The notes under the pieces were generated by a model. It saw only the letters and a program-made list of their open reading frames with translations. It searched no databases and had not been told where the DNA came from. From Homoserinibacter sp. GY 40078 (GTDB lineage Bacteria; Actinomycetota; Actinomycetes; Actinomycetales; Microbacteriaceae), in NCBI RefSeq assembly GCF_008017545.1, contig NZ_VRTZ01000001.1, forward strand, positions 186,001 to 250,000: a stretch of DNA of 64,000 nt. The letters are read 5' to 3'. Positions 14,534-26,265 of the stretch are shown here, one piece after another. The stretch's first letter is position 1, and each line of letters starts with the position of its first letter. A program made the translations under genes and the position numbers.

Positions 14534-16378
14534 ATGTCGGCACAGCCACCCCAGACCACCGCGCAGCTGAGCCCCACGGCGGAGGGTGCATGGAACGCAC
14601 GCGCGCGTGGGACCGAGCCACTCGAGCTGCGGTTCCCGGAGGGGCGCGTCGTGATGCTCGACGGGTCCGCCGAGTGGTTCGTGCTGCCGAGCGACCCGAC
14701 CCACACGGACCTCACCGGATCCGATCGCTGCTGGGTCCTCCCCACGGGAGCCGACGACCAGGCATGGCTCATCGAGACCGATGGGGTGCTCACGGCGCGC
14801 GTCGAGGCGGCGGGGTGGACGGTCATCGCCTCCGCCGAGGCGCGGATCACCGCGCACGCGAGGCGCCCCCACGCCGACCTCGACGGCGGTCGCTTCGCCT
14901 TCGACATCCCGGGGGGCGGCGCGCTCGCCGACGCGCTCGCCGGTTTCTACTGGGACACGATGGTGCCCTCGATCGTCGAGCGGACCACTGCCGCCGACTA
15001 TGCCGACTCGTCGGGCTACGTCGTCAGCACCCTCGCCGACAAGTACCAAGGCACCTACCCGGACGTGGATCACGAGTTCCAGATCAAGGGGCGCCTCGCC
15101 GCCGGCTCCGCCGTCGATCGCGATGTCGTGCGACGCATGATCGAACTGCAGCTGCGCATGATGCGCGAAGACCCCGCCCAGCTCTGGCGTGACCCGTGCG
15201 CCGTGCAGCCCGACGGGGACCGCGAGTACCACGTGCGCCGCAACAGCGCCGACGGCACCGAGAACGCCGTCATGTTCCTCGTCACCGGCAACATCGAGGT
15301 GCTCGAGTCGATCTGGCTGTACGTCGCCGGCACGAGGGACCTCGGTTGGTTGCGCGACAACATCGACGACATCGAGGGCGCCGCGTCGGGTATCGAGCTG
15401 CACATCGACGGCCACGGGCGCCTCTGGGGCGACGTCTACTACGAGGACCAGGTGATCAAGGACGGCCGCGAGACGATGGCGCAGGCCCTCGCGATCCGCT
15501 CCTTCGAGCTCCTCGCCGAGCTCGAGCGGCTCATCGGCCGCGACCAGACCGCCGCGCGCTATCGGGCGCTCGCCGCGCAGATGTCGGCGTCCCTCGCGGA
15601 GCCCCTGCCGCACGGATGGTGGGACCCCGACGCGCAGCGCTACGTCGACTGGGTGGACCGCTCGGGCCGTGTGCACGACCACATCCACCTGCTCGCCAAC
15701 ATCCTCCCCGTGCTCGTGGGGGCAGCCACCGACGACCAGCGCGACGCCGTCGAGCGTCTCGTGCAGCGCGAGCTGCCGGAGTTCCAGCGCTTCCCGACGT
15801 TCCTCTCGGCGCGCATCGCCGACTACACCGACGCGGAGATCGGCGACGGCGGCCCGTACGACCTGTGCGCCGCGGGACGCTACTGGTGCTGGGACGCGGC
15901 CTTCTGGTCGTCGCGCGGAGACGGCCGGATGCTCGACGATCAGCTGCAGCGCGTGGCCGCCGAGGGCGCCACCGACGACTACGTCATGGGCGAGCGCTAC
16001 GACATGCACCACGTGTACTACACAGACGGCCCGAACTGGCACGGAGCCGCCCACTACTACGAGTACCCGTGCGTCTTCACCTGGGTGCTGATGGCCGAGT
16101 ACCTCGGGGTGCGCGCGAGCCTCGACGCCGACCTGCTCGTCGCCCCGCGGCTCGCCGAGCACGGTACGGTCCTGCTCGAGCAGCAGGCATACCAGCTGCG
16201 CTACACCTCGGCGCCGGGGTCGTTCACCCTCGAGAACCTAGCCGACACGGCGCGCTCCTTCCGCCTGGACGTTTCGAGCCTCGCCCCCGGCGCGCGCGTC
16301 GTCGACGGCGCCACGGATGGCATCGTGCGGCTCGCCGCCGGCGAGAGCATCACCCTCGCCGTCGAGGGCGCCGCATGA
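14534..16378 (+). CDS. Six-hairpin (alpha/alpha toroid) glycosidase-like protein, specificity unknown
   Basis: A 614-residue cytoplasmic protein without a signal peptide. An N-terminal beta-rich part (about 1-130) is followed by a helical toroid. Tryptophans and acidic residues are placed as in six-hairpin glycosidases: GFYWDTMVPSIVER, GRLWGDVYYEDQVIKDG, AGRYWCWDAAFWSSRGDG and PNWHGAAHYYEYPC. A short beta-domain ends the protein. The family could not be named with confidence. The catalytic acid is probably among the Asp/Glu of the WGDVYYED or CWDAA segments. It is the first gene of a three-gene operon (4-bp overlap with the next), so it likely acts on the same glycan. AAGGAA lies 11-12 nt before the ATG. 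Confidence 0.7.
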   Translation: MSAQPPQTTAQLSPTAEGAWNARARGTEPLELRFPEGRVVMLDGSAEWFVLPSDPTHTDLTGSDRCWVLPTGADDQAWLIETDGVLTARVEAAGWTVIASAEARITAHARRPHADLDGGRFAFDIPGGGALADALAGFYWDTMVPSIVERTTAADYADSSGYVVSTLADKYQGTYPDVDHEFQIKGRLAAGSAVDRDVVRRMIELQLRMMREDPAQLWRDPCAVQPDGDREYHVRRNSADGTENAVMFLVTGNIEVLESIWLYVAGTRDLGWLRDNIDDIEGAASGIELHIDGHGRLWGDVYYEDQVIKDGRETMAQALAIRSFELLAELERLIGRDQTAARYRALAAQMSASLAEPLPHGWWDPDAQRYVDWVDRSGRVHDHIHLLANILPVLVGAATDDQRDAVERLVQRELPEFQRFPTFLSARIADYTDAEIGDGGPYDLCAAGRYWCWDAAFWSSRGDGRMLDDQLQRVAAEGATDDYVMGERYDMHHVYYTDGPNWHGAAHYYEYPCVFTWVLMAEYLGVRASLDADLLVAPRLAEHGTVLLEQQAYQLRYTSAPGSFTLENLADTARSFRLDVSSLAPGARVVDGATDGIVRLAAGESITLAVEGAA

Positions 16379-19991: not shown

Positions 19992-22900
19992 ATGCCTTCC
20001 GCCCCTGCGCGCCTACGTTCACTGCTGCCCTCCTTCATCGGGCGCCGTCCCCGGGCTGCGGCCGCCGCGGGGCTCGCCCTCCTCCTCGTGGCGGGCGTCT
20101 CGGCTCCGCCTGCGCTCGCCGCCACCACCGACGCGGGAATCACGCTCTCCGTCGACAACGGCCAGCTCCTGGTGGGCACCGTCGACCTGACGGCCACCGA
20201 CTCCCGCTCGGGTGCGCCGCTCACGATCAGCATCGACGGAGTCGAGCGCGACGCGGTCGCCGCGCCGATCGCGAACCTCGTCTTCCAGGCGCACGGGTGG
20301 GAGTCGAACACACTCAACACCTGGGTGATCAACGGCTCGAAGACCATCACGCCGCTCACCCGCTACTGGGATTGGGCGTCGGCGACCTGGTCCATCCCGG
20401 CGGGCGCACTCGTCGCGGGCACCAACACGATCGAGCTGCGCACCGGCAGCACGACGATGGTCCACGACCCGGCCGCGGGCGCCAACGACGACTTCCGCGT
20501 GAGGAACGTGGGAGTGAAGTTCCCCGACGGGACCACGATCACCGACCCGGCCTACGGCACCAACGTCGCCGTGGACATGGGCGACAGCAGCTCGGTCGCC
20601 AAGCTCAGCAACACCTGGACGTTCCAGATCCCCGAGAGCCGGGTGGTCGCGAAGTCGAGCTACTCCTGGAACACCGACCAGGCGGATGCCGGCGAGCACG
20701 TCATCACCGCGACCTCGGCCGACGGCACCCGTTCCGTGAGCACCACCGTTCGCGTTGGGTCATGGGCACCGGCCCCCGAGCGGGTCGTGCTGACCCCCGC
20801 GGCCGACGCGTCCACGGCGCAGTCGATCACCTGGCGCACCGGATCCGCGACGACTGCGGGCGAGGTGCACATCCGCGAGGCCGGATCGGAGGGCGACTGG
20901 CGCGTCGTCGACGCCTACGCCAACGCGCCGATCTCGAGCGGAGGCGTCGCGACCCGCACGCACTCCGCGACCGTGACCGACCTCACGCCCGACACACGCT
21001 ACGAGTACTACGTGGGCTCCGATGACGGCCAGAGCAGCACCTACGAGTTCCGCACCGCGGGCGACGCCGACGACCCGTTCACGTTCATCTACTTCGGCGA
21101 CGCGCAGAACGAGCTGACCGAGAAGTGGGCGCCGGTGGTCGACGCCGCCTACGCGAAGTACCCCGACGCGATCGGCACCGTCAACGCGGGCGACCTCATC
21201 GACGCATCCCGCAACGACAGCGAGTGGACCGAGTGGTTCGACGCGATGGACGGCCGCACCCAGACCGGCAACGTCATCGCCGCGCCGGGCAACCACGAGT
21301 ACGTCGGCGACACCTTCCTCACGAAGTGGAAGTCGAACTTCGAGTACCCGCTGAACGGGCCCACCCCGGATGACGCCGAGGCCGCGAGCGAGGCGGAGAT
21401 CCAGAAGGCGGCCTACGAGGAGCAGATCGCGGAGTCGCTGCGCGAGACGGTGTACTACACCGACTACCAGGGTGTGCGATTCATCGCGCTCAACGCCTCG
21501 CGCAACGAAGCCGCCGACCTCTACACGCCCGACGACCTCCCGCCGTGCTCGACCGACTGCCCCGACCCGAAGCAGCTGTGGATGCAGATGCAGGCCGAGT
21601 GGCTCGACCACATCCTCGAGACGAACCCGAACCGCTGGGCGGTCGCCGTGTTCCACCAGCCGGTGTTCTCCACCGCCGTGGGCCGCGACGAGGCCGACCT
21701 CCGTGCGGCGTGGCTCCCGGTCTTCCAGAGCCGCGACATCGACCTCGTGCTCATGGGCCACGACCATAGCTACGCCCGCGGGTTCGTCGACTCCGACGCG
21801 ACGTCCACCCCCGGCGTGACCACCGGACCCGTCTACGCCGTCTCGATGTCCGGGCCGAAGTACTACGAGGTCCAGCCCGCCGACGACAACGTGTGGACGC
21901 AGAACGGCGCGACCCAGGTGACCGCCGCAGCGCACACCTCGACCTTCCAGGGCATCACCGTCGACGGCAACACGCTGCGCTACGAGTCGATCGTGGCGGC
22001 GAAGGACGACCAGTCGACGACCGACGTCGCGGTCGGCGGAACCCTCGACGCCTTCACGATCACGAAGTACGACAGCGGCTGGAAGTTCGTAACCGAGGAC
22101 GGCGTGGCCATCCCGGCCGACCCCGGGACCGCGCCGGAGGAGCCGGAGGACTCGGGGATCACGTTCTCGATCCCGAACGGCAGCACGCTCTCCGGCACCC
22201 GCACGATCACCGCTACCGACGCACGCGCGGACCAGCCCGTCACCATCTCGGTCGACGGCGAGGAGCAGGAGGTCGCACCGACCGCCCGCACCTACATCGC
22301 CTTCGAAGCGCACGGCTACCTGGCGACCACCAAGAACACGATCGTGATCAACGACAACTGGAAGATCGTCCCCGCGACGGCGTACAACAACTACGCCACG
22401 GGACGGTTCCTCGTACCCGCGGCCGCGCTCCACCCCGGAGCGAACAAGATCCAGTTCTACACCGGCAGTACCGACATGATGAACGACCCCGCGACCGACG
22501 GACGCAACGACGACTTCAACATCCGGAACCTCCGCCTGGAGTACTTCGACGGCACCACCGGAACGGATCCGCGCATGTCGCCGACGGCGATCGCCAACAT
22601 CGGCGACAACGGCACGAACGTGCGCAGCTGGACGTGGGACGTGGAGATCCCCTCCGAGAACCTGAAGTCGGGCAGCTCGACCTTCACCTGGGACACCACG
22701 ACGGCCGAGTACGGCACGCACGAGCTGACCGCCACCTCGGCCGACGGGTCGCGCAGCACCAGCATCTCGGTGTTCGTCGACAACCACGAGCCCGTGCAGC
22801 TCGACCTCGCGGACGGCAGCCTCGTCAACGGGGTGCGGCAGCTCACTGTCACCACCGACGTGGCCCCGAGCCTCACCGTCGACGGTCAGGAGCTGACCCT

Positions 22901-25900
22901 CGAGCGGCGACACCGTGTGGTCGACCCGGTCTTCACCTTCGAGGGCGACGGATTCCAGCCCGACGCGATGATGAACAGCATCTGGGTCAACGGTCGGCTC
23001 TACCGCGTGCTCGGGGTTCCCGAGGCCGCCCACGGATGGAAGACGGTGCGGGTGACGATCCCCTGGGACGAGCTCCAGTCGGGCACCAACGTGATCCGCA
23101 TCCGCGCCGGCGCGAACCTCAGCGTCGACGGATCGCCTGTCGACGTGTTCTCGACGCGCAACTCGCGACTCGAGTTCGGTGGCGGTCGCGCGCTCACGGA
23201 TACCGCCCATTCGGCCACCGAGAGCCTCAGCTACTCGAACACGACCAAGTACCGCGACTTCACCTTCACGATCCCGGAGGAGTGGGAGTACGTGTACCAG
23301 CACGACTGGGACACGACCGTGCTCGACGACGGCCTGCACACGGTGGTCGCGTCGCGCGACGACGGATACAGCACGGATTCGGCGACGGTCACCCTCGACA
23401 ACTCCGGGCCGGCGATTCAGCTCGGCGCACCGCTCGAGGGCGCGGACTACGCGAAGTCGTCGTTCGTGGTCGACGCCACGGCCTCCGACTCGCACGACGT
23501 GGCCGAGACCTCCTTCGCGATCGACGGCGAGCCGGTCGAGAACGGGCAGCGCGTGACCGCCGATGACCTGCGTGACGGCGCCCACACCTTCACCGCCACC
23601 GCGGTCGACTCGCTCGGGAACGCCTCCACACGCACGGTGACGTTCACCACGACGGGCAACTACCCACTCCTGCCGACGGGCCCCTCGCCTGTGGCGGGCG
23701 CGCTCGACCAGAGCCCCGCCGACACGGTGCTGAGCGCCACGGTCGCCGACCCGAGCTCCGACTCGCTCGACGTATCGATGCGCTGGGGCTACCGGGGCGA
23801 CTTCGCCTCCGGCGCCATCGGGGCCACGCAGGGCTCTTCGCTCACGGCGGTGCCTTCCCTCTCCGCGGGATCCGAACTGGACGCGGACGACACCGCCTCG
23901 CTCGCAGTGCGGGACGGCGACGAGGTGACGACCACCGGAGACGCGGCGTACCCGTTCCAGCAGTACGAGATCGCGGTGCCGGATGACCTCGACACGGAGG
24001 TCTTCACCGCGGAGTGGTCGGGATCGGTCCCCGCGACCGAGCGCGCCGCCCTCTCGGTGTGGAACCACCGGACGCAGTCGTGGCAGCTGGTCGACTCCGG
24101 CACGGGCGCGGATCTGACGCTCTCGGGCGACGTGTCGATCGCCGACGCCGTGCGCGACGGCACCGCACAGCTCCTCGTGCAGGACGTGGCCGCCACGGTC
24201 ATCGCCGAGGACGACGACGCCGCGGTCTGGGCGTGGATCAGCGACACGCAGTTCTACGCCCAGGACGGCTCGCCCACCTACGAGAAGCAGGTGAAGTGGG
24301 TGCTCGATCACCGCGAGTCCGACGGCATCGGATACGGCGTGCACACCGGCGACATCGTCAACAACCGCCTGCTGTCGGAATGGGAGTTCGCCTCCGCCCA
24401 GCAGAAGCTGTGGGATGACGCCGGATTCCCCTACGGAATCCTCCCCGGCAACCACGACGTGGACGCCGACGGCGGATACGCGAACTACAAGAGCTTCTTC
24501 GGTGAGGACCGCTACGCCGACAAGCCCTGGTATGGCGGCGGATACGACGACAACGTGCAGCACTTCGACGTCCTCTCGACCCCCGCAGCCGACTACCTCG
24601 TCGTGTACCTCGACTGGCTGCTCGACGAGGCGGACATCGACTGGGCGAACGACGTCATCCGCTCGCACCCGGACGACAACGTCATCGTGGTCACGCACCA
24701 GTACCTCGCGGACGGCGGCGGCTACACCTACCCCGGACCGGTGATCTTCGACCGGATCGTGGCACCCAACCCGAACGTCGATGCCGTGCTGAGCGGCCAC
24801 GTCGATGTCGAGCTGAACGTCAAGCAGGTCAACGGCCGTCAGGTGATCGAGGTGATGGCCGACTACCAGTCGGCTCCGAACGGTGGTGACGGCTGGATGC
24901 GCACCATCACGTTCGACGCGGAGCACCAGACGTTCAGCAACCGCACGTTCTCGCCGACGCGGTCCGGTAGCTACTGGAAGGACGACGCGATCGAGAACTT
25001 CACGCTCCCGATGACGCTGGAAGCACCCGAGCGCTGGGTGTCGACCGACTACGTCGGGGTGTCCGCCCGCGGAGGCGAGGTCATCGCGTCGTTCGACGAC
25101 GTGCAATCCGGCACGCGCGTGTCGGCACCGGCCGGAGAGCTCACCCCGGAGGTGCGGTCCAGTTGGTACGTCAGCGCGACCGACTCGGACGGGTTCACCA
25201 CGACCTCCGAGCTGTGGGACTTCACCACCGGTGAGGCCGAGGAGCCGGAGGAGCCCGAGGACCCCGACACGGCAGCTCCCGTGCTGACGGTGCCCGACGC
25301 GTCCGTGATCTTCGTCGGCTCCGCGTTCGACGCACTCGCCGGGGTCTCGGCACGCGATGCGGTCGACGGCGACGTCACCTCGAAGATCCAGGTGACCGGC
25401 GCCGACGAGCTCGGCACTGTCGGGCGCCACGTGCTGCGCTACTCGGTGACCGACGAGGCCGGGAACGAGGCGCACGCCGAACGCGTCGTCACGGTCGTGC
25501 CCGTGTCACTCGAGGACGTCCTCGACCCGGAGACCGAGACGCTCGACATCCGTGGCGTCGGCGGCGACCACCGCTCGATCAGCGCCACCGTGCCGGAGGA
25601 CCTCGCCGGTGTGGAGCTGAACTGGGTGGTCTACTCGGCACCCCAGGTGATCGGAGCGAAGGCGTCCGCACCCGGCGGCGCGATCTCCCTCGTCTTCCCG
25701 ACGGCTCTCCCCGCAGGCGAGCACCACCTCGTCGGGTACGACGACGACGGTCAGGTCGCCACCTGGGCCGCGTTCCAGGTCGCGGCCGCACCGGCCGACC
25801 CGGGCGACGACGGGGAGGGCACCGGCACCGGCGGAGACGGCACCGGCGGGGTCATCGCCGCGACCGGCGCGGAGGTCACCGGGCTCGCCGTGGTGGCGAT

Positions 25901-25964
25901 CCTGCTGCTGATCGTGGGCGGCATCGCCGTCGCACGTCGCCGCCGCGGCACGCAGGAGGGCTGA
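19992..25964 (+). CDS. Giant surface protein with two metallophosphoesterase domains
   Basis: A 1,990-residue secreted protein. The signal peptide ends near residue 43 (PPALAATT). A roughly 210-residue domain follows (45-255). Next are a fibronectin-III/purple-acid-phosphatase N-domain (258-355) and a first metallophosphoesterase (360-610; YFGDAQNE, NAGDLID, PGNHEYVGD, GHDHSYARG). Two further copies of the 210-residue domain (720-930, 935-1140) and an Ig-like domain come next. The second metallophosphoesterase (1410-1640) has ISDTQFYAQ, HTGDIVNN, PGNHDVDADGG and a degenerate GHVDVE instead of GHxH. A DUF5011-like domain begins near 1758. The tail has Gly/Thr-rich IAATG, a membrane helix and RRRRG, a sortase-like anchor. 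It likely scavenges phosphate from organic esters outside the cell. ATG at 19992 with GAGGA upstream. The 153-bp gap before it holds no gene. Confidence 0.88.
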   Translation: MPSAPARLRSLLPSFIGRRPRAAAAAGLALLLVAGVSAPPALAATTDAGITLSVDNGQLLVGTVDLTATDSRSGAPLTISIDGVERDAVAAPIANLVFQAHGWESNTLNTWVINGSKTITPLTRYWDWASATWSIPAGALVAGTNTIELRTGSTTMVHDPAAGANDDFRVRNVGVKFPDGTTITDPAYGTNVAVDMGDSSSVAKLSNTWTFQIPESRVVAKSSYSWNTDQADAGEHVITATSADGTRSVSTTVRVGSWAPAPERVVLTPAADASTAQSITWRTGSATTAGEVHIREAGSEGDWRVVDAYANAPISSGGVATRTHSATVTDLTPDTRYEYYVGSDDGQSSTYEFRTAGDADDPFTFIYFGDAQNELTEKWAPVVDAAYAKYPDAIGTVNAGDLIDASRNDSEWTEWFDAMDGRTQTGNVIAAPGNHEYVGDTFLTKWKSNFEYPLNGPTPDDAEAASEAEIQKAAYEEQIAESLRETVYYTDYQGVRFIALNASRNEAADLYTPDDLPPCSTDCPDPKQLWMQMQAEWLDHILETNPNRWAVAVFHQPVFSTAVGRDEADLRAAWLPVFQSRDIDLVLMGHDHSYARGFVDSDATSTPGVTTGPVYAVSMSGPKYYEVQPADDNVWTQNGATQVTAAAHTSTFQGITVDGNTLRYESIVAAKDDQSTTDVAVGGTLDAFTITKYDSGWKFVTEDGVAIPADPGTAPEEPEDSGITFSIPNGSTLSGTRTITATDARADQPVTISVDGEEQEVAPTARTYIAFEAHGYLATTKNTIVINDNWKIVPATAYNNYATGRFLVPAAALHPGANKIQFYTGSTDMMNDPATDGRNDDFNIRNLRLEYFDGTTGTDPRMSPTAIANIGDNGTNVRSWTWDVEIPSENLKSGSSTFTWDTTTAEYGTHELTATSADGSRSTSISVFVDNHEPVQLDLADGSLVNGVRQLTVTTDVAPSLTVDGQELTLERRHRVVDPVFTFEGDGFQPDAMMNSIWVNGRLYRVLGVPEAAHGWKTVRVTIPWDELQSGTNVIRIRAGANLSVDGSPVDVFSTRNSRLEFGGGRALTDTAHSATESLSYSNTTKYRDFTFTIPEEWEYVYQHDWDTTVLDDGLHTVVASRDDGYSTDSATVTLDNSGPAIQLGAPLEGADYAKSSFVVDATASDSHDVAETSFAIDGEPVENGQRVTADDLRDGAHTFTATAVDSLGNASTRTVTFTTTGNYPLLPTGPSPVAGALDQSPADTVLSATVADPSSDSLDVSMRWGYRGDFASGAIGATQGSSLTAVPSLSAGSELDADDTASLAVRDGDEVTTTGDAAYPFQQYEIAVPDDLDTEVFTAEWSGSVPATERAALSVWNHRTQSWQLVDSGTGADLTLSGDVSIADAVRDGTAQLLVQDVAATVIAEDDDAAVWAWISDTQFYAQDGSPTYEKQVKWVLDHRESDGIGYGVHTGDIVNNRLLSEWEFASAQQKLWDDAGFPYGILPGNHDVDADGGYANYKSFFGEDRYADKPWYGGGYDDNVQHFDVLSTPAADYLVVYLDWLLDEADIDWANDVIRSHPDDNVIVVTHQYLADGGGYTYPGPVIFDRIVAPNPNVDAVLSGHVDVELNVKQVNGRQVIEVMADYQSAPNGGDGWMRTITFDAEHQTFSNRTFSPTRSGSYWKDDAIENFTLPMTLEAPERWVSTDYVGVSARGGEVIASFDDVQSGTRVSAPAGELTPEVRSSWYVSATDSDGFTTTSELWDFTTGEAEEPEEPEDPDTAAPVLTVPDASVIFVGSAFDALAGVSARDAVDGDVTSKIQVTGADELGTVGRHVLRYSVTDEAGNEAHAERVVTVVPVSLEDVLDPETETLDIRGVGGDHRSISATVPEDLAGVELNWVVYSAPQVIGAKASAPGGAISLVFPTALPAGEHHLVGYDDDGQVATWAAFQVAAAPADPGDDGEGTGTGGDGTGGVIAATGAEVTGLAVVAILLLIVGGIAVARRRRGTQEG

Positions 25965-25992: not shown

Positions 25993-25998
25993 GGCCGC

Positions 25999-26265
25999 CT
26001 ACGCTCCGCCGCCGGCGACCGGCATGTCGAGCGACGAGACCCCCGCCATCGACATGCGCACGTGACCCTCGGTCTCGATGAGCACCGCCAGCACCGCGTC
26101 GCAGTGCACGCATCGCAGCACCCAGCCCATCGCCGAGACGTAGGCCGACGCCGATGCCACGGCCTGACGCGCCCCGCAACTTCCGCACGACGCCTCGGCC
26201 GAGGTGACGTCGCGACCGAAGGCATCCGCGAGGGCGCCGGCGACAGCGTTTCCGTCGAGGTGCAT
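25999..26265 (-). CDS. DUF6510-like small zinc-ribbon protein
   Basis: An 88-residue protein with two CxxC pairs, CGSC and CVHC, about 28 residues apart, the pattern of a small zinc ribbon. It resembles the DUF6510 family. It begins 2 bp after the stop of the FAD/NAD reductase gene, with GGAGGGGG before the ATG at 26265, so it forms a three-gene operon with the reductase and the molybdoenzyme. Its function is unknown. The context suggests an accessory to the sulfite-oxidase-like enzyme or its electron donor. Confidence 0.75.
   Translation of the reverse strand: MHLDGNAVAGALADAFGRDVTSAEASCGSCGARQAVASASAYVSAMGWVLRCVHCDAVLAVLIETEGHVRMSMAGVSSLDMPVAGGGA

Follow-up and report, generated by a model that had tools for sequence, protein, structure and literature searches.

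ShfP (YvnB) of Bacillus subtilis is a sporulation phosphoesterase that releases glycerol, which delays the sporulation of neighbouring cells (PMC11488536). Analysis of mutants, in which the histidine pair of motif V was replaced jointly rather than singly, showed that its function needs the phosphoesterase residues, and lipoteichoic acid was considered by the authors to be the likely substrate (PMC11488536). Within a large surface family, ShfP is the only member with a known role that we found in the literature. The same species possesses YfkN, a large sortase-anchored trifunctional nucleotide phosphoesterase that combines cyclic-nucleotide phosphodiesterase/3'-nucleotidase and 5'-nucleotidase activities (PMC3222306). 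A further group for comparison is the purple acid phosphatases (PAPs), in which an N-terminal domain (PF16656) precedes the metallophosphoesterase domain (PF00149).

Here we report the analysis of a gene from a high-GC actinobacterium, encoding a protein of 1990 residues with two different metallophosphoesterase domains, termed MPE1 and MPE2, and a module repeated three times (R1, R2 and R3). As our best explanation, the protein is probably a member of the ShfP/YvnB-like cell-surface calcineurin-like phosphoesterases, namely a wall-anchored glycopolymer phosphoesterase that has gained a second enzyme and in which the first metal site of MPE2 is altered.

Overall architecture

The gene spans positions 19992–25964 of the window, the 64,000-nucleotide stretch of Homoserinibacter sp. 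GY 40078 that was analysed, and lies on the forward strand, as do all its features given below. A ribosome-binding site (GAGGAAC) stands ahead of the ATG, and the frame of 1990 codons contains no internal stop. By inspection only, residues 1–44 (19992–20123) resemble a signal peptide, with an arginine-rich n-region, a hydrophobic core and a cleavage-like site at ALA-ATT. At the other end, the motif IAATG is followed by a transmembrane stretch and RRRR (25854–25961), corresponding to the sortase-like tail described in the earlier note. This tail scored 16 bits (E 0.008) against the NCBIfam LAVTG model, under the cut-off of 27, and three sortase-family genes are present in the same genome. The protein is accordingly predicted to be secreted and anchored by sortase through a non-canonical sorting motif.

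Pfam analysis detected the Metallophos domain twice, with a PAP N-terminal domain ahead of the first copy only, in agreement with the earlier claim of two dissimilar metallophosphoesterases. The module of PAP N-terminal domain and MPE1 lies between the additional, duplicated R1 and R2, on the N-terminal side of a ShfP-like core; at this place, lamin-tail domains or R modules in tandem are found in the relatives. A second metallophosphoesterase motif was found in none of about 145 relatives examined, and the present protein is the only one with two GNH[D/E] motifs among the ORFs collected. Similarly, MPE1 was absent from all 40 proteins of the order with an R module and from the proteins of all 80 named loci, these counts deriving from partial genome samples. 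The combination, which had been called unusual, is indeed so within this family; however, YfkN offers a precedent for two phosphoesterase activities in one wall-anchored protein (PMC3222306). Pfam revealed no UshA/CpdB-type domain in the 1990-residue protein. Such domains are, we presume, the building blocks of YfkN.

Structure of the repeated module

The three modules comprise residues about 47–257 (R1, 20130–20762), 717–931 (R2, 22140–22784) and 934–1138 (R3, 22791–23405). Self-comparison gave 43.6% identity between R1 (47–255) and R2 (720–929), with an E value of 1e-48 and an alignment score of 437, where shuffled sequences averaged 40 (SD 7). R3 (935–1137) aligned with R1 or R2 at 26–28% identity (E 4e-11 to 8e-13; z 18 and 22). 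All three pairs scored far above shuffled sequences (z 18 to 58), so that the E values and shuffles rule out a chance likeness, and the three-fold repeat proposed from the letters alone, together with its quoted start, middle and end motifs, was recovered by the self-alignment that had been suggested as a check. In the tree of R modules, R1 and R2 are sisters (100/98), and R3 forms a long branch of uncertain placement. Modules of this type are carried by 49 of the 396 genomes of the order.

For R1, AlphaFold gave a model with a mean pLDDT of 92 from an alignment of R1–R3 and 53 relatives. The order of its strands points to a separate sandwich placed between two sets of three strands. The nested part (residues 87–215, 20250–20636), about 129 residues predicted with a few extra, folds on its own with a pLDDT of 91.7 and a pTM of 0.84. 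Once the outer halves were joined, R2 matched the Ig-like family Big_7 (PF17957) at 27.2 bits (E 6e-6), above the cut-off of 24.1 bits, followed by R1 at 21.5 bits (E 4e-4) and the module of a ShfP homologue at 14.3 bits (E 0.07), whereas the joined halves of R3 gave no match. Against the same library, uncut R1 showed no Big_7 match, and 6 of 56 uncut R members matched weakly. Given the strand order, the matches of the joined halves and the independent folding of the nested part, the module is most likely a Big_7-like Ig domain interrupted, after 'DG', by a nested beta-sandwich of about 129 residues. The same three lines of evidence led us to reject a single new uniform fold. The repeat therefore stands as first noticed, but not its description as an unrecognised domain, as the module is probably of a known Ig type with a nested sandwich and recurs in the ShfP/YvnB family; the nested part is present in such surface phosphoesterases of both Bacillota and Actinomycetota.

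Searching solved structures by Foldseek with the whole R1 model retrieved only pairs of Ig domains at an uninformative TM-score of 0.14. The nested sandwich alone yielded nothing significant (best E 0.06). Its top neighbours, none of them significant, were lipoxygenases, matched in what we take to be their N-terminal PLAT domain, a rhamnogalacturonan lyase of family PL4 (structure 1nkg; probability 0.51, E 0.19) and vCBM60. In addition, Pfam PL4 domain III gave a borderline match for R1, with 27.4 bits for the whole protein against a cut-off of 27, and 17.4 bits or less for a single R domain. The nested sandwich thus weakly resembles PL4 domain III, PLAT and CBM60. Because this likeness is weak, with nothing significant among solved structures, we only infer, by analogy, that the R module may bind glycans.

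The ShfP-like core

Residues 933–1750 align end to end with a ShfP homologue of Bacillus spizizenii (L188), with 29% identity over 855 columns and an E value of 2e-106 in BLASTP. Judged from this alignment, they form a complete ShfP-like core with the domains in the same order: the R module R3, an Ig-like domain of Big_7/Big_13/OmpL47 type (residues 1140–1222, 23409–23657; Pfam and NCBIfam), a linker domain (1223–1405, 23658–24206), MPE2 (1410–1640, 24219–24911) and an end domain reaching residue 1750 (24912–25241). Both proteins also share the DTQ, GD, GNHD, H and GH motifs. Numbered from its first Met, the homologue has D927, N997 and H1114/H1116 at exactly the residue numbers mutated in B. 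subtilis ShfP (PMC11488536), and D963 and H1080 are likewise matched in the alignment. An identity of 29% is nevertheless too low for the substrate to be transferred.

In contrast to ShfP, the 1990-residue protein has a second, PAP-like phosphoesterase, two more R modules and a wall-anchor-like tail, has lost the last histidine of motif V, and has no known sporulation context. Moreover, the lamin tail domain (PF00932), present in L188 and in another relative (L071), gave no Pfam match here; this domain appears common in the family yet not defining, because relatives from Jiangella also lack it. Scanning named genomes with the core from R3 to MPE2 confirmed 526 stretches encoding relatives, and the best 80 of these 526 belong mostly to Bacillus, Paenibacillus and their kin, with some Actinomycetota. 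The core profile found no match among solved structures. Within the same order, four proteins (L080, L085, L088 and L090) similarly carry two or three tandem R modules followed by a ShfP-like phosphoesterase with DTQ, but they lack MPE1, keep GHEH or GHRH, and have R modules of another clade.

The PAP-like phosphoesterase

Residues 262–355 (20775–21056) constitute a Fn3-like PAP N-terminal domain, matched by PF16656 at 59 bits against a cut-off of 30. It is followed by MPE1 (21075–21851), matched by PF00149 above its cut-off, which is the domain order of PAPs. The motifs GDAQ369, GD400, GNHE433, H555 and GHDH589 are all intact, and their GDAQ, GD, GNHE, H and GHDH are invariant in 26 sequences. 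MPE1 thus shares the domain order and most motifs of PAPs; however, its motif I is DxQ, and the segment GDLID at residues 400–404 bears Asp404 at the position of the Fe(III)-binding Tyr of GDLxY. This residue is Asp or Asn in 26 of 26 sequences. The absence of the Tyr rules out a true purple acid phosphatase, and, given Asp404 and the DxQ motif, MPE1 should not be purple. The nearest relatives of MPE1, with 68–70% identity, are scattered through the family and lack the R module. In a more distant relative, a GH92 mannosidase and a PAP module like that of MPE1 share a single frame of 1952 codons (L111:2893–8748), a fusion which, by analogy, hints at phosphorylated mannans as substrate.

Genomic surroundings and putative substrate

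Upstream of the gene, the same strand encodes an MGH1-like glycosidase and a GH35 beta-galactosidase and, ahead of these glycosidases, a 614-residue ORF (14534–16378) that has a strong coding signal but matched nothing in Pfam or NCBIfam. Further to the left are a LacI regulator and a transporter of the sugar ABC type. The downstream side has a DUF6510 gene and an oxidoreductase pair, with a molybdopterin-binding protein as one of its members, on the opposite strand. Searches for promoter and terminator patterns gave nothing at either end of the gene. In two congeners, the sequence shared with the window lies to the right of the gene, starting at 25994 in one and at 26206 in the other, and the gene itself has no match; the former match begins about 30 bases past the stop codon. 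As these congeners share the right flank without the gene, and the eight other genomes examined from the genus all lack it, the gene sits in a variable region.

These surroundings raise the tentative possibility that the target is not the cell's own wall but a phosphorylated glycan imported by the adjoining sugar cluster. The gene begins 153 bases beyond GH35 in the same orientation, no terminator being detected in the interval, the congeners have the sequence that follows 25994 while lacking the gene that precedes it, and the GH92 fusion links an MPE1 relative to a mannosidase; against this, the ShfP core occurs in many genomes with other architectures. For a wall polymer, the genome itself offers three glycerophosphotransferase matches of the teichoic-acid type, two of them in one frame of 1023 codons (L212, C2:188764–201643), whose product is a candidate source of the substrate.

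The altered metal site of MPE2

Every residue of the ShfP catalytic set (D927, D963, NHD997–999, H1080, H1114 and H1116) is matched in MPE2 except H1116, the residues kept being D1418, Q1420, D1454, NHD1487–1489, H1569 and H1603. DxH is the textbook form of the first of these motifs in metallophosphoesterases, and DTQ in its place is common to all 119 aligned sequences. The alteration is found in motif V, where GHVD (residues 1602–1605, 24795–24806) replaces GHYH, corresponding to the degenerate GHVD pointed out in the earlier note. Among 118 relatives, a few of them from organisms sampled twice, the position of His1116 is occupied by His in 113 and by Thr in five Bacillota (L135, L141, L144, L168 and L195). 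In the 1990-residue protein the residue is either missing, by a one-residue deletion in the multiple alignment, or represented by Asp1605 in BLASTP; as the two alignments differ, GHVD may have arisen either from a His-to-Asp change or from the loss of one codon. The R modules of the five Bacillota group in one clade (99/91), and their GHxT therefore looks inherited; since Thr occurs in these family relatives, His1116 of ShfP is not strictly family-defining. The nearest relatives of MPE2, two Jiangella proteins (L121 and L122) with 50% identity, lack the R module and both keep GHIH; L121 also carries a laminin-G-like domain. The best match in the family sample reaches 40% identity, and no close relative at E 1e-60 was found in the phylum sample.

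As is well established for this superfamily, the histidine at the end of motif V is a ligand of the first metal. With this ligand missing, the first metal site of MPE2 would be altered, whereas the second should be intact; the domain is possibly inactive. Alternatively, MPE2 may still be a full enzyme in which Asp1605 or a water replaces His, the two domains acting in sequence as phosphodiesterase and phosphomonoesterase to strip the polymer completely. The retention of all other catalytic residues, the pairing of Asp1605 with His1116 in BLASTP, the single clade of Thr-bearing proteins, in which the loss of His looks inherited rather than freshly broken, and the precedent of more than one phosphoesterase activity in anchored YfkN (PMC3222306) speak for this version. 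We nonetheless regard it as unlikely, given that the multiple alignment favours a deletion over substitution by Asp and that His is kept in so many relatives, the nearest included. Finally, the many Ig-like and beta-sandwich domains, among them a bacterial surface Ig-like domain (PF16403, residues 1771–1835, 25302–25496), the anchor-like tail and one altered active site might suggest mainly an adhesin with both phosphoesterase domains as leftovers or binding modules, but this is very improbable in view of the intact and invariant motifs of MPE1 and the need of ShfP for its phosphoesterase residues (PMC11488536).

Proposed mechanism

The ShfP-like wall-anchored phosphoesterase that we favour enables us to propose a putative mode of action. 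The R modules would serve as spacers and glycan-binding parts, holding the enzyme on a phosphate-bearing wall polymer. MPE1, with all metal-ligand motifs intact, would account for most of the phosphate release. MPE2, lacking the last His of its first site, might be weakly active, use another metal, or merely bind substrate. The substrates may be teichoic acids, as polymers of glycerol phosphate, or glycans that bear phosphate, from which phosphate would be gained together with glycerol or sugar; this assignment is conjectural and takes its lead from ShfP and the wall-polymer genes. It is conceivable, though doubtful, that the second phosphoesterase was inserted into the repeat array and took over catalysis, the ShfP-like site becoming a one-metal enzyme or a lectin-like module that binds phosphate polymers, with the GHxT clade as an independent case.

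In summary, the family itself is known, and what is new is a second enzyme between duplicated R modules, a lost metal ligand and the way in which the repeat is built. An actinobacterial protein of 1990 residues is now tied to ShfP, and the repeat of the family probably consists of an Ig domain in which a second sandwich is nested. This protein and the GHxT clade provide two natural sets for asking whether the last histidine of motif V is needed. Furthermore, because a single anchored chain combines two phosphoesterases of different kinds, the idea that a phosphate polymer is attacked in two steps becomes testable.
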